From the NCBI GenBank assembly GCA_024399275.1, contig JAKSHS010000001.1:62001-126000 (forward strand): a stretch of DNA of 64,000 nt, given 5' to 3'. The notes under the pieces were generated by a model that saw only the letters and a list, made by a program, of their open reading frames with translations, had not been told where the DNA came from and did no database searches. The translations under genes were made by a program, and so were the position numbers. Shown one piece after another: positions 40,802 through 49,893 of the stretch; the stretch's first letter is position 1; the number at the start of each line of letters is the position of its first letter. This DNA is from an archaeon. Its GTDB lineage: Archaea; Thermoplasmatota; Thermoplasmata; Methanomassiliicoccales; Methanomethylophilaceae.

Positions 40802-40973
40802 ACATAATAAAATCACCCTGCTTAAGCAATTATTCTCTAACACACTCATCCATATAGGGTGTCGATGTGAAAATTAGCTCTCTCCACGATTTCTGAAGAA
40901 AACCTGCAGTCTTCTCCTCACTTAAAGAGACATTCTAAGCAGTGGCAGTCATCCAATAAACTACTTCTACATT

Positions 40974-42764
40974 TCAATTTCTCTCAAAAATGCCCCAAAA
41001 TTTTCCCTCATCGCATATATCAAAAAATTCCTCTGCCAATTGATCTGAACTGGCTTCTTCATAATCGCCATAGTCTAAGGACATCCTGCTAACACCATCC
41101 GCGTATATTTTCGAAATAAAATATTGTCTAAAAGCGGCTCTTTCAAAAAGTCCATGAATATGAGTGCCGTAAAGTTGCCTCTCTTCATCAACTAAACCTT
41201 CAGAAACATCCTTACTCAATGTTCTTATCGTAAATAGCGGAGCACCTTTGTAATTTTCCGTATAAACATTGCGTATTTCGTATCCTTCTATTTTACCACA
41301 ATCACCAACATTCAGTGTTACGTAATCTTTTGCCACACGAATGCTATTTTTATCTTCCTTAAAATTTACATCAATAAGGTTCAAACCCTCTAATTCTGGT
41401 TGTCTTCCACTGTTACTTACTAAACAGTACTTTGCCATAATCTGGAAACCACCACAAATTCCGAGAATTGGGATTTTCCCTGCCATTCTCTTTATAGAAT
41501 CAAAAAGTCCAGTAGTCTTTAACCACCGAAGATCTGCTGGTACATTCTTTGTATCCGGAATAATTATCGCATCTGTGGCAATAAGATTTTGCGGATTTGT
41601 CGCGTATTCAACAGCAACATTTTCCAAAGACAATGGACTAACATCCGACAGATAAGATGCCTCTGGAAACTTAATAACCGAAATTTTTTTACTGTGCACA
41701 TTTACGTCATTAAAAGATGAAAAATTCTTCAAATTTTCACAAGAAAAAACGTTAACATATGAAACAACCCCAATAACAGGAATTTTAGTTATTCTCTCTA
41801 ATTGTCCAATAACTGATTCAAGACTACCAGAATCTTTGTTAAGAGTTCTCAGAATAATTCCTTTGATTTGTTGCCCTCCATTCTTAAGAATAGGCTCAAT
41901 TTTACACAAGACATCTCCAAAATTTTTTTTATTATCCACGTCTACAACAAATATACAGCTGGCACCAACAACTTTTGCCATTTCAATATTCACATTATTA
42001 ATATCTTGAATATCCACACTATCTGGAAAGTCCGAACCCTCCATTATGATACAATCATATCTTTTCCTTAGAAAATCCACACTATCTCTCGCAATATCTC
42101 TTCCCCATTCCCAAATGAAATTTCTGAGATAGTCTTCCGCATTATATTTTCCGATATTTTTCCCATTGACGATGACATGCCAAACTTTATCGTTTTTTAA
42201 TTTCAAAAATATTGGATTAACATCCATTGAAATATTAGTTAGGCCAGCAGCTTTACATTGAAAATCCTGCGACATTGATATGTAACTACCAATCCTGGTA
42301 ACTCTTGGGTCATTGTAAATGCTCTGCAGTTTAAAGGGTGTGATAACATAACCTCTTCTTAACAACAAGCGGCATATGGCTGCAACGATAAAACTTACAT
42401 CTGATGTCACCCCAAAAACCATAACGCATTTTCCCAGTTGAAAAATGCTCCTTTTTGCCTCGATAAACACATCCTTTATTCTTGGATCCCTGGCACTAAT
42501 AATTCCAAGTTTTTTGAACTCTCTAAAAGAAAATTCAACCACGTTGTTATTATGATTAAACAAGCACTGTGAACAATCCCATATGCCCCCATCCTTTGCC
42601 GGAATCATTTTCCCTAGGTCTGTATCTTCACATGGATAAAATGGACAATAGCAAAATGAGCAATTCTGTCCCTTATAGTGACATGGATAATATTCACAGC
42701 AAGTGTTACAACGAATATTTCCCATCTCTAGAGCACGATCAACCTTCTTTGTAATACACTTCAT
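40974..42764 (-). CDS. CobQ/CbiP-like protein with N-terminal cysteine-rich domain and degenerate synthetase motifs
   Basis: A 596-residue fusion. Residues 1-75 form a cysteine-rich domain (ten cysteines, 19-67; CNTCCEYYPCHY, CSFCYCPFYPC, DCSQC) like the Cys-rich small domain PF04071. Residues 110-340 resemble the synthetase half of cobyric acid synthase. However, the P-loop reads GVTSDVSFI (normally ending D-x-G-K-S), the SQNMALNS equivalent is LQSIYNDP, and D-R-G-G-V-F is DNKKNF. The glutaminase half (395-545) keeps Cys437 in GICGGFQ and His537 in GTHIHGLF. It lies beside cobT, cobY and cobS, so a corrinoid role is likely, but ordinary CobQ activity is doubtful. Confidence 0.8.
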   Translation of the reverse strand: MKCITKKVDRALEMGNIRCNTCCEYYPCHYKGQNCSFCYCPFYPCEDTDLGKMIPAKDGGIWDCSQCLFNHNNNVVEFSFREFKKLGIISARDPRIKDVFIEAKRSIFQLGKCVMVFGVTSDVSFIVAAICRLLLRRGYVITPFKLQSIYNDPRVTRIGSYISMSQDFQCKAAGLTNISMDVNPIFLKLKNDKVWHVIVNGKNIGKYNAEDYLRNFIWEWGRDIARDSVDFLRKRYDCIIMEGSDFPDSVDIQDINNVNIEMAKVVGASCIFVVDVDNKKNFGDVLCKIEPILKNGGQQIKGIILRTLNKDSGSLESVIGQLERITKIPVIGVVSYVNVFSCENLKNFSSFNDVNVHSKKISVIKFPEASYLSDVSPLSLENVAVEYATNPQNLIATDAIIIPDTKNVPADLRWLKTTGLFDSIKRMAGKIPILGICGGFQIMAKYCLVSNSGRQPELEGLNLIDVNFKEDKNSIRVAKDYVTLNVGDCGKIEGYEIRNVYTENYKGAPLFTIRTLSKDVSEGLVDEERQLYGTHIHGLFERAAFRQYFISKIYADGVSRMSLDYGDYEEASSDQLAEEFFDICDEGKFWGIFERN

Positions 42765-42870: not shown

Positions 42871-43986
42871 GTGTGGAAAGAATTTGAAATACCGCCATCG
42901 CTCGGTATATATGGCAGCAAAGAGACCGCAAGTGAAGCTTTATCAAGAATATGGGGTAAGAGAGGTGCATTTACATGCACAGTCGCAAGTACTTTAACAT
43001 CAACAATTCCTGGAATATCCGATGCGGGTAATACTCCCGAACTTACACTCTTCACCGGTCCTGCTGATGCCGAGATTCTTTTACATGGAAAAGCACTTTG
43101 CATGAATGAAATCCCAATCAATCCTGGAAATATCCCTACGCCCGCGACTCTTACAATGGCAGCACTACAACTATCCGATATGCCCTGTTATATTATAAAC
43201 GGGGGATGTAAAATTGCACCACAAATACCCTTCTTCGATGTCGGGGCAACATATGGAGAAAAAATTACAACAGGACAATCTGTAAAAAACGTCAAAGAAA
43301 TATTCGAAAAGGGGAAAATTCTAGGAAAAAATCTTGCCAAAGGAAATGATTTCATTGTTATTAGCGAAAGTATTGCAGGAGGCACAACTACTGCCCTAGC
43401 AGTTTTAATGGCTATGGGGGTTCTAAAGGAAAATCTCGTTAGCAGTAGTTCTCCAAAGAATCCAAAAAAACTGAAAACCTGTGTTGTAAACGAAGGTCTT
43501 AAAGCGGCTGGAATCAAGATAGGAGATTTAATTCACGATCCTCTCAAAGCCATTGAATATGTAGGTGATCCAATGCAAGCAGTTAATGCTGGGATGTTAA
43601 TAGGGGCCGCAAAAACAATTCCAACGATTATGGGAGGAGGTACACAAATGGCAGCAATTATAGCAGCTGCTTTAGAATTGGATCCCTCAATTGAAGGAAA
43701 TATTCTTCATGGCACAACACGGTGGCTCGTAGAAGACAAATACTCCGATATCTGCGGTATTATGGACAGAATAAACAGAAACATTCCACTAATTTATACA
43801 AACATCAACTATTCCACTAGCCAATACGAAGGACTACGAGCGTATGAGAATGGATTCATTAAGGACGGAGTAGGATGTGGAGGCTCAAGTATCGCCGCAA
43901 TTGCAACTAGTTCTGGAAGAATTGACTGTGATGCCCTCTTTAACAAAGTACAAAACATCTACAGGGATATCATAAACGTTTACTAG
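42871..43986 (+). CDS. cobT: Nicotinate-nucleotide--dimethylbenzimidazole phosphoribosyltransferase, archaeal CobT type
   Basis: A 371-residue protein of the archaeal CobT family (formerly UPF0284), which activates the lower-ligand base of cobalamin as its alpha-riboside phosphate. Visible signatures include the glycine-rich ISESIAGGTTTALAVL, GDPMQAVNAGMLIGA and MGGGTQMAAIIAAA. The start is GTG 42871, about 26 bases after TAAATTATAA, indicating a leaderless mRNA. It is the only plus-strand gene in the corrinoid island and its end overlaps cobY by four bases. Confidence 0.9.
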   Translation: MWKEFEIPPSLGIYGSKETASEALSRIWGKRGAFTCTVASTLTSTIPGISDAGNTPELTLFTGPADAEILLHGKALCMNEIPINPGNIPTPATLTMAALQLSDMPCYIINGGCKIAPQIPFFDVGATYGEKITTGQSVKNVKEIFEKGKILGKNLAKGNDFIVISESIAGGTTTALAVLMAMGVLKENLVSSSSPKNPKKLKTCVVNEGLKAAGIKIGDLIHDPLKAIEYVGDPMQAVNAGMLIGAAKTIPTIMGGGTQMAAIIAAALELDPSIEGNILHGTTRWLVEDKYSDICGIMDRINRNIPLIYTNINYSTSQYEGLRAYENGFIKDGVGCGGSSIAAIATSSGRIDCDALFNKVQNIYRDIINVY

Positions 43987-44585
43987 CGTAAAAACAAATC
44001 CGCCACTTCTAACTCTCTTTGAGTATTCACATTAATAGCAAGATCAATTTGATTCAGCACGAAATAATCGCAACTGAGAACTTCATCATCCAAAAGTCTT
44101 TTACGATTCATAATACTCATACCGGAGATCACCCATCTTTTCCCATTCATTTCAAATGAGTAAGATGGTTTAAAACCCGCCTCAATAACCGTGTCCTCCT
44201 CAATAATCGCTACCACAGAATCGTTTTTGTTTCTATTAAAATATTCAATAAAATAATCTATTGTACGGGACTTTATCAATGGAATATCAGACGGAAGACC
44301 TAAAACATAATCCCCTCTCAACTTCGAGAATGATTTATGGAGATCGCCGACATAATCCTCTCCACTAGTCTTTACAGTTTTAATTCCTAATCTATTAAGG
44401 TAAATCTCAGTGCTTGGAGTGTTGGGACTAACTGCTACAAGTATTTCATCCACCATTCTGGCCCCCCTTAATGCCTTTATTACTCTTCCAACTGCACACA
44501 TTCCTCCAATCTCAATCATAGGTTTTTCTACATTAAGTCCCGCCATACGGGTTCCTTTTCCTCCCGCCATAACCAAAGCTTCCAT
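43983..44585 (-). CDS. cobY: Adenosylcobinamide-phosphate guanylyltransferase CobY
   Basis: CobY, 200 residues, the archaeal GTP:AdoCbi-P guanylyltransferase replacing bacterial CobU. The nucleotidyltransferase signature MAGGKGTRMAG lies at residues 6-16 with KPMIEIGG following, and LGLPSDIPLIK is the metal-binding part. It is separated by six bases from the upstream cobS, so both steps of nucleotide loop assembly are co-expressed. Confidence 0.92.
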   Translation of the reverse strand: MEALVMAGGKGTRMAGLNVEKPMIEIGGMCAVGRVIKALRGARMVDEILVAVSPNTPSTEIYLNRLGIKTVKTSGEDYVGDLHKSFSKLRGDYVLGLPSDIPLIKSRTIDYFIEYFNRNKNDSVVAIIEEDTVIEAGFKPSYSFEMNGKRWVISGMSIMNRKRLLDDEVLSCDYFVLNQIDLAINVNTQRELEVADLFLR

Positions 44586-44591
44586 TTCTCC

Positions 44592-45407
44592 TCATTCCAA
44601 AAATGAATCTACAAAAATCATAAAAAATATAGCAATAACGCGGGACGTCTCATTCGTAGCACCAAGAACATCTCCATTAACAATTCCAAAGTTTCTATTG
44701 GCCACATTAGCCATTACCAGTCCCCACAAAATTGACATTGTAAATCCTACAATTATGGAGATCCCGGAATTTCCCACAATATTATAGTTGGTGAATATAC
44801 ATCCAAACAAGTATTTCCACAGAAAACAAAGCGCGAGAATAATAATTATCGACAAAGCTGTAGACTTGATGAGGGATAGCGGTGTCGTATATCTTACAGA
44901 ATCTCCAGCCATGCCGTTGCCCGCATTTCCAAATGCAGCCGTTGCAACCTGCGTATTTTTTGCTATTACTTCCGCGTTAACTGCAAATAAAACAAATTTA
45001 ACAATATTTAACGAAGAATATTCCGCAAATAGCAGAAGTATAATCATTGTACCCGTAACAATACCGCCAGCACCTACTAAAGTATCTTTCAATGCTCTAA
45101 TATGATCCTCTCTTTTCCCTGACACGACAAGACCATCACCCATATCCACAGTTCCATCAAGGTGAAGAAAGCGATTCATTGCACTTACACAAAATATAGT
45201 AACAGCTGCAGCAATAAACTTCGATGTACACATGTATGTCAGACAAAAAACAAATCCTGCAAATAGTCCGTAAAACAAACCCACTATCGGCACTAGCCAA
45301 AATTTTTTATTCATATTGTCTACGTGTCTTTGTTCTACATCTATCGGGAGCACAGTAAAAAATGAAAACATTCCCTTAATTGCCAACAAAATTGAAACAC
45401 AACTCAC
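44592..45407 (-). CDS. cobS: Cobalamin 5'-phosphate synthase CobS
   Basis: CobS, 271 residues, joins AdoCbi-GDP with alpha-ribazole phosphate in the membrane. The family motif HLDGTVDMGDGLVVSGKREDHI (shortened from HLDG-x2-D-x2-DG) lies near residue 82, followed by KDTLVGAGGIVTG. About seven membrane segments are visible. The frame extends to GTG 45434, but GTG 45407 has CAGGGGA at ideal distance and gives the usual N-terminus (LLAIKGMFSFFTVLPI), so I prefer it. Confidence 0.9.
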   Translation of the reverse strand: MSCVSILLAIKGMFSFFTVLPIDVEQRHVDNMNKKFWLVPIVGLFYGLFAGFVFCLTYMCTSKFIAAAVTIFCVSAMNRFLHLDGTVDMGDGLVVSGKREDHIRALKDTLVGAGGIVTGTMIILLLFAEYSSLNIVKFVLFAVNAEVIAKNTQVATAAFGNAGNGMAGDSVRYTTPLSLIKSTALSIIIILALCFLWKYLFGCIFTNYNIVGNSGISIIVGFTMSILWGLVMANVANRNFGIVNGDVLGATNETSRVIAIFFMIFVDSFLE

Positions 45408-45716
45408 GAGAATCCCCTGCCCTGTGTAACACACCCACTACTCCTCGCAACACGACGCATAAAATAGCTTTCTTCATCAAAATTCTTTGCACTGGGAAAA
45501 AACGATCTAAATTCCTCTCCGTGCCTTATTTCACATTTCTAGTTCTAAGTTCTTGGAACGTCTGTGCGACTAAAACTCCTACTCATCTATTACGCAACTC
45601 AACACTGACGCTGTGACGCTTCTATAAACGCCCCCAATAACCCAAAATAATAGCACAGCAACACTACAGGCGACCTCTCCGTATTTAAAATATCATCCGT
45701 CAACTCATAGTAAAGA

Positions 45717-46526
45717 TTAAACACGGGGCTTCCCCAAACGATATCTTTTTGGAAGAACATACAACTCATTGTCGTCATCCAATCCTACCGAAGCCGACAC
45801 CCCATAAACATCCTGAATCAACTCGGTAGTAATAACATCCTTCGGTTTACCGGTGGCAATAACTTTTCCTTTCTTCATTATTATACAGAGGTCGCAATAT
45901 CTCGCCATAAGTGAAAGATCATGTTCCGCCACAAGAATTGTCATGTCTTTTCTAACCATTGCGGTTAAGTATTCCATGACGTCAAGCTTGTATTTCATAT
46001 CAAGATGAGATGTCGGTTCATCAATGAGCATTAACCTCGGCTGTTGAACATACGCCTTAGCAATGAGAGCACGTTGTTGTTCTCCAGAAGATAACATGTT
46101 GAATTCTCTCTCTCGAAGATCGTAAACCCCAAACTTCTTTAAGGCATTATATACTAGTACTTCATCCTCAGCAGATTCCCACCACATGTTACTAACATAC
46201 GGGTATCTGCCCATCATAACTGTCTCAAACACAGTTAGCCCAAAACCTATATGAAATTCAGCCGGAACATTCGCAATCTCTTTAGCAATTTCTTTTGAAG
46301 ACTTGCTTAATATGCTCTTTCCGTCTATTAGAATATCCCCCGACGAAATGTCTCGCGTTTTATTAATACATCTCATCATAGTAGTTTTTCCACACCCGTT
46401 TGGGCCAATAAGGCCCACAAGTAGTCCAGGCCCTATTTCATATGAAACGTCACGTATAGCGTGATACCCGTCAGAGCAAATTAGATTGAGTTCTCTCAAT
46501 TCCAGCAGTGGAGTGTTTTCATCCAT
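45717..46526 (-). CDS. btuD: ABC transporter ATP-binding protein, corrinoid/iron-chelate type (BtuD)
   Basis: A 269-residue ABC ATPase. Walker A is GPNGCGKTT near residue 42, the signature is LSSGEQQRALIAKA, Walker B is RLMLIDEPTSHLDM and the H-loop is VAEHDLS. The start ATG 46526 overlaps the end of the permease gene by eight bases and is preferred to the longer frame. With the FecCD-type permease and BtuF-like receptor and the cob genes nearby, the substrate is most likely a corrinoid. Confidence 0.88.
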   Translation of the reverse strand: MDENTPLLELRELNLICSDGYHAIRDVSYEIGPGLLVGLIGPNGCGKTTMMRCINKTRDISSGDILIDGKSILSKSSKEIAKEIANVPAEFHIGFGLTVFETVMMGRYPYVSNMWWESAEDEVLVYNALKKFGVYDLREREFNMLSSGEQQRALIAKAYVQQPRLMLIDEPTSHLDMKYKLDVMEYLTAMVRKDMTILVAEHDLSLMARYCDLCIIMKKGKVIATGKPKDVITTELIQDVYGVSASVGLDDDNELYVLPKRYRLGKPRV

Positions 46527-47781
46527 TGTACATTTTTCCCTTTTTAACAAAAAGCCAGATAAATATCGGAACACCGACGATAGTAGTTATGGCACCAACA
46601 GGCAACTCCACACCTGGATACATCATCCTCGCAATAAGATCCGCAACTATCATTATCAATGCACCGACAAATATTGACGCTGGCATAACTATCCTATGAT
46701 CACTTCCAACAAACATCCTACATAAATGTGGAACTATCAATCCCAAAAACCCAATAATCCCGACAAATGACACACAAATTGACGTTAATACAGATGCATA
46801 AGTTAGCATGAATCTGTTAAACCACTTAACATTAAGTCCCATTTGTTTTGCTTGATCTTCTCCAAGAAGTATAATATTGAGTTCTCTAGCCCATATAAGC
46901 GGTATGACAGACATTGTTATTATCGGAACGAAAATAAATTTAAGCTGTATCCATGAAATATTAGCAAATGATCCATACAACCAGGTAAGGACATTAATGA
47001 TTTTATGGCCCGCCATGATCATCATTAATGTCTGAACAGCACTAAATGCCATGCCGACAATAACTCCAGAAAGGACATAGTTAACCGATAACCCTCCTGC
47101 TTTCTCAGCCAATATCATCGTGCAAGCAAACGCGACAAGGCCACTCATCATTGATGCTATCGCAATTAAATACGGAGAATGTGACGAAAACAGGCCAAAA
47201 AAAGTAAACTCAAATGCTACTACGGCTACCGCTGCAGTTCCTGCGCCTGACGAAACTCCCATAATATATGGGTCCACTAATGGATTTCTGATGATCGCCT
47301 GATATATCAGTCCTGCAATTGACAATCCAATACCAACAGATAATGCCGCTAATGTTCTTGGTAGTCTAGAACCACAAACGAGTATCTCGTCATATGTTAA
47401 GTCTTGTCCACATTTTTTGACAAATGAAATTAGAGCTAATATCGTCTTGTCTGGTGACAGTGTACCGGCTGCTCCACAACACAAAGATAAAAACAGCATT
47501 GCAAGCACTGCAACAAGTCCTGAAAACAACAAAATCTGGAGCCTACGTCTATTCCTCTCAACATGCAAACAGACATAATTTGTTGGCCGATTAGTATTTC
47601 TCATCAAGAAGAATCTACGATACAACAATACAAACACAAATGAAACGCAAATAACTACAGATAAGAGTGTAACATGCGCAAGCCCAGCACATATATTGGC
47701 TGATAGATTCAGTAAAACGCATACACTCATGGATAAGAATAATGCAAGAATCAATGCGCTTAGCGCTTTCTTTATTCTCAT
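46519..47781 (-). CDS. btuC: ABC transporter permease, FecCD/BtuC type, with N-terminal extension
   Basis: A 420-residue permease of the BtuC/FhuB/FecCD family with about ten core membrane helices. Signature stretches are RLPRTLAALSVGIGLSIAGL, NPLVDPYIMGVSSGAG and the coupling-helix region GIIGFLGLIVPHLCRMFVG. It is about 90 residues longer than usual because of an N-terminal extension with two extra hydrophobic segments (residues 8-28 and 36-54) and a basic loop. Five bases separate it from the receptor gene. Confidence 0.9.
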   Translation of the reverse strand: MRIKKALSALILALFLSMSVCVLLNLSANICAGLAHVTLLSVVICVSFVFVLLYRRFFLMRNTNRPTNYVCLHVERNRRRLQILLFSGLVAVLAMLFLSLCCGAAGTLSPDKTILALISFVKKCGQDLTYDEILVCGSRLPRTLAALSVGIGLSIAGLIYQAIIRNPLVDPYIMGVSSGAGTAAVAVVAFEFTFFGLFSSHSPYLIAIASMMSGLVAFACTMILAEKAGGLSVNYVLSGVIVGMAFSAVQTLMMIMAGHKIINVLTWLYGSFANISWIQLKFIFVPIITMSVIPLIWARELNIILLGEDQAKQMGLNVKWFNRFMLTYASVLTSICVSFVGIIGFLGLIVPHLCRMFVGSDHRIVMPASIFVGALIMIVADLIARMMYPGVELPVGAITTIVGVPIFIWLFVKKGKMYNG

Positions 47782-47786
47782 TCTAA

Positions 47787-49124
47787 CTATACCAACAGGT
47801 TCTCGTAGTCATTGCCTATATATTTTGGAACTACAGATAGATGAAATACTTCTGGATGCAAAATCCTACCAAGTAGTCCCATCAACTGCGTCACCCTTGG
47901 ACTAGGGCGTTGCATCATGTCTCCAGCATCCTCGCACATCATGTATATTTCTCCGTTCCTGTAAGCATCTGTGGACTTCCAATCATCTGGTAATATCGAT
48001 AACATACAATTGTACTCCAACTGAGTAGCCTTATAAACTGTCGTAAGAACTATTATTTTTGAAGGATTGTTCTTCACAACAACCTCTCTATCAACAGACA
48101 ACCATCCATCGAGGTTTGCAAACGCATTTTCCCCCAACAATCTTGCTATAATGTCCCCTACATAAGTATGGCTCCCAGCAACAAATGGAGACGAATTTAA
48201 TCCTAGGACGACCATCACAGTGCCATTATCAGAAGTCTCTGCCTCCTCTATTAAGCTTATAATTCTCAAAGTTTCATTTTCAATCTGGCTTATTTTAATA
48301 TTAGCATCACTGCCCCGCCCGAGCACGGTTCCTACGATGTATATATTATCAATAATGTCGTCGAACGTCTCTTCAGTACAAAGGACAACTGATTCAATTC
48401 CACTGCTCCTTAACCTATTCGCAATTTGTACATGGTTATACTGCAAACCGTCACAAAGAACTATGTCTGGCTTAGCTCCAAGAATTTCTTCGAATAAAAC
48501 CGTTCCATAGTCCCCTACTACAGCCAGCTTCTCCTCATTCCGCATCTTCATTATCTCAATAGGATAATCGCTATGTCTATCCACTCCAACGAGCAAGTCT
48601 GCTGCCTTTATGTTGCTTATAATTTCCGTAATAGAAGGTGAAAGAGACACAACTCTCTGCACCTTACCATGTCCATATATTGATCTTCCAGACTGATCTA
48701 CAGCGACTGTGGGTTCTCCATTTGAATCACAATATGCCCATGATGAAATAGTACAGTCTGTCAAACTAACCGAATAAGGCGCAGACATTTTCACCCACTC
48801 AGTCGTTCCACACTTAACCACCCAAAGATTCCATGTAGCATCACCAGGTACTGAGTATATGCTGTCAATCTCGACAATACTCCCATTCCCGTCTATAGAA
48901 AATGAATACCCATTGTCTTTACAAATATAATCAAGTGAATCTATAGCTGTAGGGCACTCATCAAAATTGATGGTAGTCCATGTCACATTCCTATTCCCAA
49001 AATCGACTGTTATCTCCCCAAACTCGCGCGTAACGGTGTCTTGCTCAATGCCAGCAGTTATCGCTATTGCGGAAGACAGCAAAACAGCAACTATAATAAC
49101 TCTCTTTGCCAGGTTACTGATCAT
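47787..49124 (-). CDS. btuF: BtuF-like substrate-binding protein with N-terminal DUF4430-like domain
   Basis: A secreted or membrane-anchored receptor of 445 residues. A signal-like hydrophobic segment is at 8-25. Residues about 35-135 form an extra beta-rich domain with ITVDFGNRNVTW, VPGDATWNLWVV and a WAYCDSNG end, resembling DUF4430, a relative of the transcobalamin C-terminal domain. The BtuF/FepB-type domain follows (RVVSLSPSITEIISNI, KPDIVLCDG). A TTG at 49160 opens a longer frame, but a TATA element at 49161-49172 argues for ATG 49124. It is the first gene of btuFCD. Confidence 0.87.
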   Translation of the reverse strand: MISNLAKRVIIVAVLLSSAIAITAGIEQDTVTREFGEITVDFGNRNVTWTTINFDECPTAIDSLDYICKDNGYSFSIDGNGSIVEIDSIYSVPGDATWNLWVVKCGTTEWVKMSAPYSVSLTDCTISSWAYCDSNGEPTVAVDQSGRSIYGHGKVQRVVSLSPSITEIISNIKAADLLVGVDRHSDYPIEIMKMRNEEKLAVVGDYGTVLFEEILGAKPDIVLCDGLQYNHVQIANRLRSSGIESVVLCTEETFDDIIDNIYIVGTVLGRGSDANIKISQIENETLRIISLIEEAETSDNGTVMVVLGLNSSPFVAGSHTYVGDIIARLLGENAFANLDGWLSVDREVVVKNNPSKIIVLTTVYKATQLEYNCMLSILPDDWKSTDAYRNGEIYMMCEDAGDMMQRPSPRVTQLMGLLGRILHPEVFHLSVVPKYIGNDYENLLV

Positions 49125-49893
49125 AAAACGCCACAAAATGAGTCGCACAACGTTCCTCAAAAATACAAATATCCAGCACCACGCGAACGCCCAACTTCAT
49201 AAGCTCTTCCCTGACATTTCTAATTCCCAGAATAAGCACCAATTCAATTCTGTACTGTACGATACTTATCCTCCCTGTTCTATTGCCCCAGACGCAACTC
49301 TTACGCTGATATAAGAAAAGCGCATCACGTATAACCTGCCAGGACTACCAACCAATTAAATGACCTCGATCCTCACAATAACAAAATTTCATTATAAATC
49401 TTTGGACTATCCATCCAACTCATAACTTTTTCTTTTTTGCACTGTTTTTCTGAAAAAGTAATTTTAAAAATGTAGTCCATATAGAACAAACACATTAACA
49501 CACAAAACAGACGATCAATGCTAGCACGCAATAACAATCGGTCTTTTTGGAATAAAATTCAACCCATTATTGACAAGCGCCCAGGTCCTATAGAAGTCTA
49601 GTAGTTCCACGAGCACTAGGAACCCCAGCAACGGTTCAACACTTGTATTAAAACTTTTTGTAAAAGATCATATGCCTGCAACAATTACTTCAAACATCTT
49701 ATACACATCTTTGATCTAATGCAGTAAAGCTGTATGAATGACACCAAAAGGTATACATTTCATCTAGAATCACAATCAACTTTCACCCAAATAAGTAACA
49801 TGACCTTCGCAGGATCAATCTATATTGTCCAATACTAAACTCAAATACAATAGAATAAAATTAATAAAAAAGGGGAATTAAACCCCAATTAAA
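49125..49893. other. Long intergenic region, no gene found
   Basis: About 770 bases between btuF and apt. The left end holds the btuF promoter (ATATTTGTATTT on the minus strand at 49161-49172), and the right end the apt terminator. No corrinoid riboswitch-like fold, tRNA or convincing coding frame could be identified in the middle, which is AT-rich with many short stops. Confidence 0.5.
49870..49886 (-). terminator. Terminator of apt
   Basis: On the minus strand GGGG-TTTAATT-CCCC followed by TTTTTTATTAATTTTA, 7 bases after the apt stop. The stem is short (4 GC pairs) but the T-tract is strong. Confidence 0.6.

Follow-up and report, generated by a model that had tools for sequence, protein, structure and literature searches.

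A degenerate CobQ fused to a conserved Cys-rich domain is under purifying selection in one clade of Methanomassiliicoccales

Within a 64,000-nt stretch of archaeal DNA (referred to here as the window), the 596-aa product of an intact ORF at 40974..42764 (− strand) joins a Cys-rich zf-like domain to a CobQ/CbiP body in which all four synthetase motifs that we examined were altered. What is new is that this decay was limited to one clade, accompanied the loss of CobD, CbiB and CbiZ, and affected a gene that is under purifying selection. The decay was also domain-specific, with the Cys-rich domain being the best-kept part of the protein. On balance we think it probable, judging from the sequence and its neighborhood, that this pseudo-CobQ carries out no catalysis, is kept for its Cys-rich domain and works in corrinoid salvage.

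Results

On re-reading, the coordinates, the length and every motif quoted in the original prediction were exact. Pfam placed PF04071 at residues 18–78 (42531..42713, − strand, as for all parts of the gene below; 81.6 bits, gathering threshold 27), with the ten cysteines that had been counted falling within residues 19–67, and the glutaminase domain GATase_3 at residues 360–544 (41133..41687; 97.9 bits), consistent with the proposed Cys-rich domain followed by a CobQ-like body. The degenerate synthetase (ATP) domain occupies residues 113–345 (41730..42428), and AAA_26 scored 32 bits. The protein passed the cut-off of the NCBIfam cobyric acid synthase model NF001989 (286.4 bits, cut-off 273) and stayed under the stricter cut-off of TIGR00313 (272.4 bits, cut-off 309.9), compared to 535 and 509 bits, respectively, for an intact relative. 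It shares with CobQ/CbiP, as represented by these two models, the synthetase-then-GATase_3 order, the body length, the glutaminase Cys/His pair and homology over the full length, but it lacks the P-loop, SQNMSLNS, EGAGSPAEIN and WGG motifs, carries the extra N-terminal PF04071 domain, and resides in a genome without CbiB as the user of the product. No second, intact CobQ was found among the contigs of the window genome (G000; 16 contigs totaling 750,557 bases, completeness 79%), where the other GATase_3 matches were CfbB (F430) and a PurQ-like protein adjoining a PurL-like one. An AlphaFold model built with two sequences (pLDDT 31) was too poor to view the nucleotide pocket.

The loss of the P-loop Gly-Lys-Ser noted in the original prediction was borne out by comparison with the consensus of the order, in which GATSDAGKS corresponds to GVTSDV--S of the window protein (GVTSDVSFI, 42387..42413), two codons, for Gly and Lys, being deleted. 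The same comparison upheld both further alterations that had been proposed, LQSIYNDP for SQNMSLNS (42306..42329) and DNKKNF for EWGGAF (41919..41936; order consensus xEWGGAF), and revealed a fourth, previously unmentioned one, EGSDFPDSVD for EGAGSPAEIN (42012..42041). The window protein does not fit the Walker A pattern G-x-T/S-S-x-x-G-K-S/T, nor does it contain the SQNMSLNS, EGAGSPAEIN or GG(V/A)F motifs of CobQ/CbiP. A 68% identical homologue from a separate genome (G003; JAKSHT010000001.1, a horse faeces MAG) showed the same two-residue deletion, the same departure from the Walker A pattern and alteration of the same motifs, which ruled out both a sequencing error and an intact P-loop merely shifted in the alignment. 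In a third genome, G002, the four motifs were partly altered and the P-loop reads GATPYIWKS. The P-loop was intact in 50 of the 53 genomes read, and the three exceptions belong to one clade of one genus, whose fourth sampled species, G001, retains it.

The corrinoid connection proposed earlier from the neighboring genes was supported. The pseudo-CobQ gene adjoins genes for a CobT-type nicotinate-nucleotide phosphoribosyltransferase (42871..43986, + strand; NF003372, 360.7 bits; TIGR00303, 319 bits), a CobY-like guanylyltransferase (43983..44585, − strand; NF045495 match under the cut-off), CobS (44592..45434, − strand; profile matches) and the corrinoid importer btuD, btuC and btuF (45717..49160, − strand; names taken from the original prediction, with orthologues in G002, G003 and G025). 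In the window genome, G003 and G002, btuD and cobS are neighbors ~300 bp apart (282 bp in the window, 45435..45716) and cobQ abuts hypF (172 bp in the window, 40802..40973). The first gap is the site of CobD-CbiB-CbiZ in G025, whose cluster consists of zf-CobQ, CobQ2, BtuF, BtuC, BtuD, a CobD-like aminotransferase, CbiB, CbiZ, CobS, CobY and CobT, and in G001 the CobD-like, CbiB and CbiZ genes lie directly before cobS. The second gap is the site of a second, glutaminase-less CobQ gene in nearly all relatives. The genes between btuD and cobS and between cobQ and hypF, namely CobD, CbiB, CbiZ and the second CobQ synthetase, are gone in the degenerate clade.

The second CobQ gene, located directly after zf-CobQ (L011:3216-4142, L015:608-1456(-), L029:3245-4123 and equivalents), encodes about 280–310 aa with an intact P-loop, no glutaminase and an end resembling the CobQ C-terminal helix. 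We found no description of this gene in the literature; in the relatives, the two synthetases may share one glutaminase. Elsewhere at this locus, G002 carries two tandem BtuC-like genes (L080:2928-5118) compared to one in the window, and in G001 an ORF that by eye resembles a TnpB-type transposon protein (L142:4944-5999) adjoins the CobD-like gene, within the segment that the sister genomes have lost.

CbiC, CbiB and CbiZ were absent from all three degenerate genomes (G000 and G003, each 79% complete; G002, 96%), where single absences from the two less complete genomes are weak and the argument is carried by G002 together with the gene order. Corrin-type methylase matches in the three genomes comprised a SUMT, with a further full-length match in G000 and G003 that we read as diphthine-synthase-like by its length and score, and a short fragment in G003. 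CbiB was present in 31 of 31 genomes tested that have an intact CobQ and in none of the three degenerate ones, an association that is not statistically independent because the clade represents one evolutionary event seen in three genomes. Taken together, the four lost motifs and the missing CbiB and ring genes make it likely that the protein has ceased to be a cobyric acid synthase, as had been suggested. An active synthase with an unusual nucleotide site, for which the passed NF001989 cut-off (286 versus 273 bits) could be cited, would have to operate with all four examined active-site motifs gone and in a 79% complete genome where neither the upstream corrin ring genes, as the source of substrate, nor CbiB, as the downstream user of the product, were found; judged from these features, it appears very unlikely and we discount it.

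Decay caused by the loss of ring synthesis alone was rejected, since nine genomes lacking CbiC (G025, G008, G010, G016, G026, G027, G030, G033 and G039) keep an intact zf-CobQ together with CbiB, indicating that CobQ integrity follows the user of cobyric acid rather than the maker of the ring. It also suggests a role of zf-CobQ in corrinoid salvage, beyond ring synthesis, in the CbiC-less genomes. The constraint on CobT, CobY and CobS and the two corrinoid methyltransferase proteins encoded in G000 argue that the organism still uses corrinoids, and the latter proteins, along with the F430 genes, suggest a methylotrophic methanogen, probably one of the Methanomassiliicoccales, in line with the original prediction. 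CbiR-type remodelling was considered as a source of cobinamide phosphate and rejected, with the best matches reaching 67–68 bits (67.9) against the NF041277 cut-off of 105; such sub-threshold matches turned up in each of the 25 genomes examined, as well as in 12 of 14 controls, and therefore carry no weight. One protein of G000 with CbiR as its best, sub-threshold NCBIfam match belongs to the AP-endonuclease-2 family (G000:C9:63648-64409(-)).

In the glutaminase half, the nucleophile Cys437 (41454-41456) and the catalytic His537 (41154-41156) are kept, as originally reported. However, the Gly404Asp substitution (41553-41555) converts the PGTKN loop to PDTKN in all three degenerate genomes, and the window protein additionally carries His498Arg and Tyr535His; both of these residues are also replaced in G003, and Tyr535 is replaced in G002. 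By analogy with class I glutaminases, this loop would contribute to the oxyanion hole, and its alteration makes glutaminase activity doubtful and probably lost as well. The closest solved relative of the glutaminase half in a PDB sequence search was GatD of the lipid II amidotransferase MurT/GatD, which differs in having another kind of synthetase, pseudo-CobQ being one polypeptide. A mirror image of the window case was seen in two relatives with an intact synthetase, where the glutaminase Cys is replaced with Gly and the His with Asn (G004; L028 / L141) or the Cys with Ser (G010; L019).

These observations weakened the earlier idea that the protein delivers ammonia to a partner. The part that stood is the conserved Cys/His pair, to which a dN/dS of 0.195 for the glutaminase, a sign of purifying selection, can be added. 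Against it are the loop substitution shared by the whole clade, the changes at residues 498 and 535 in the window protein and G003, the disappearance of the second synthetase gene, which would be the obvious user of ammonia, and the decay of the glutaminase elsewhere in the family (G004 and G010), which marks it as dispensable. We regard a still active glutaminase feeding a partner as improbable.

Selection was assessed by comparing the window genome with G003 using our own pairwise maximum-likelihood codon-model script. The dN/dS of the whole gene was 0.18, with a likelihood-ratio statistic of 144 against a value of 1, and the individual domains gave 0.193 (synthetase), 0.195 (glutaminase, residues 346–596) and 0.127 (zf) at a dS of about 1.2, which is not saturated. 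Both genomes already lack the P-loop, indicating that the purifying constraint acted after its loss. Seventeen other genes compared between the same genomes had dN/dS values of 0.016–0.16, with 0.16 for both cobY and btuF; the ~0.19 of the synthetase and glutaminase is barely above the latter, so the CobQ body may also serve a separate function. When neutral evolution of the body (487 codons) was simulated to 1.2 substitutions per site, a mean of 23 stops and a minimum of 11 arose, compared to zero observed, and the reading frame is intact in all three degenerate genomes. A pseudogene was rejected on the basis of the dN/dS and the missing stops. That the gene is being lost, with no real selection acting on it, might be argued from its being the fastest-evolving of the genes compared (68% identity; others 75–98%) in a reduced genome, yet the same dN/dS, the open frames, the absence of the ~23 stops expected under neutrality and the full conservation of the Cys-rich domain make this quite improbable.

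The loss of conserved residues differed strongly between the domains. At positions conserved to at least 93% outside the genus, retention in the window protein was 16/16 for the zf domain, 36/77 for the synthetase and 26/39 for the glutaminase (Fisher p = 4e-5 for zf versus synthetase and 0.01 for zf versus glutaminase), the corresponding counts being 16/16, 49/77 and 32/39 in G002. G001, of the same genus, kept 15/16 and 75/77 in the first two domains, its glutaminase lying off the contig. Compared to the intact G006, the G001 synthetase (72% identity) is better conserved than the Cys-rich domain (60%), and this pattern is reversed in the window protein (39% versus 55%). Summed branch lengths from the genus ancestor were 0.16 for the G001 synthetase versus 1.0–1.3 for the other three, and 0.25 versus 0.43–0.51 for the zf domain. 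Similarly, the CobQ profile score falls from 535 bits in G006 to 382 in G002 and 286 in the window protein, whereas the Cys-rich domain remains steady at 80–84 bits. This result strengthens the significance attached to the Cys-rich domain in the original prediction.

Continued purifying selection on the body after the loss of catalysis, together with the adjoining btuFCD, cobS, cobY and cobT genes, could also be explained if the CobQ body had been repurposed to bind incomplete corrinoids, such as cobinamide, which is cobyric acid plus aminopropanol, and to hand them to CobY/CobS, the Cys-rich domain being auxiliary. The intact zf-CobQ of the nine CbiC-less genomes, which points to a possible function of CobQ in salvage, and its position at the head of the salvage cluster with CbiB and CbiZ in G025, fit this explanation. 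On the other hand, the motifs that likely contact the substrate, SQNMSLNS and EGAGSPAEIN, were lost along with the ATP site, and the synthetase evolves about 6–8 times faster than in G001, compared to about twofold for the Cys-rich domain. We therefore consider a corrinoid-binding body rather unlikely.

The 16 order-conserved positions kept in the Cys-rich domain are C23, H29, Q33, C35, C38, C40, P41, Y43, P44, C45, D47, G51, W62, C64, C67 and H71. Among these order-conserved residues are 7 Cys and 2 His, which point to a putative metal site. In a phylum sample of 196 genomes, PF04071 was confined to this order and nearly always fused to CobQ; the fusion, which had been presented as a peculiarity, is the norm in the order and is itself no novelty. 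A match to the protein was present in 34 of 41 near relatives, including the window genome. Other zf-CobQ fusions of the order (e.g., G006, L011) have the same architecture and the same Cys-rich domain (83 versus 82 bits), but in these every catalytic motif is preserved, and the second synthetase gene follows in nearly every case. The domain of the window protein is a full PF04071 match with every conserved Cys and His present, and differs in its context, being placed on a catalytically degenerate CobQ, whereas elsewhere it occurs on an intact CobQ or alone.

Stand-alone PF04071 proteins were seen in G008 and G007 (L109, L120, L091) and also in G004, G019 and G020. In genus g5 (G007 and G019), CobQ lacks the PF04071 domain and separate copies exist instead, one of which adjoins corrin methylase genes in G007. 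PDB sequence searches returned no solved relative of the domain, and literature searches, with most subscription journals outside their reach, returned no characterized PF04071 protein or paper on one, and nothing on COG2158 or on this order in combination with cobyric acid synthase.

Discussion

Our analysis suggests the following scenario for the probable retention of the pseudo-CobQ through its Cys-rich domain. Within a single clade of a genus with reduced genomes, the branch of corrinoid metabolism that runs through cobyric acid was deleted, including the second CobQ synthetase gene, CobD, CbiB and CbiZ, and ring synthesis is absent too. The remaining fused CobQ would have lost ATP-dependent amidation and probably its glutaminase activity, leaving a protein without enzyme activity that, as we infer, is still expressed and is selected. 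The best-supported reason for its retention would be the N-terminal Cys-rich domain, whose rate has barely changed, with the CobQ body persisting as a folded, non-catalytic carrier, scaffold or binding surface. The likely setting would be corrinoid uptake and lower-ligand attachment, together with BtuFCD, CobT, CobY and CobS; both this salvage role and metal binding are predicted from residue conservation and gene neighborhood.

More tentatively, and with less confidence than in the retention of the protein for this domain, PF04071 could be an undescribed metal- or corrinoid-handling factor that serves archaeal B12 salvage, normally as part of CobQ, and is needed even without amidation. If true, pseudo-CobQ would represent a natural separation of functions, dividing the PF04071 domain from amidation. 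It offers a natural experiment in which the enzyme chemistry is lost, selection stays, and the fixed part is a small Cys-rich domain, which makes the role of PF04071 testable. Because the protein passes NF001989, automatic annotation would credit these gut archaea with a B12 step that is very probably beyond them, and such misannotation affects predictions of which organisms make B12 and which need it in animal guts.
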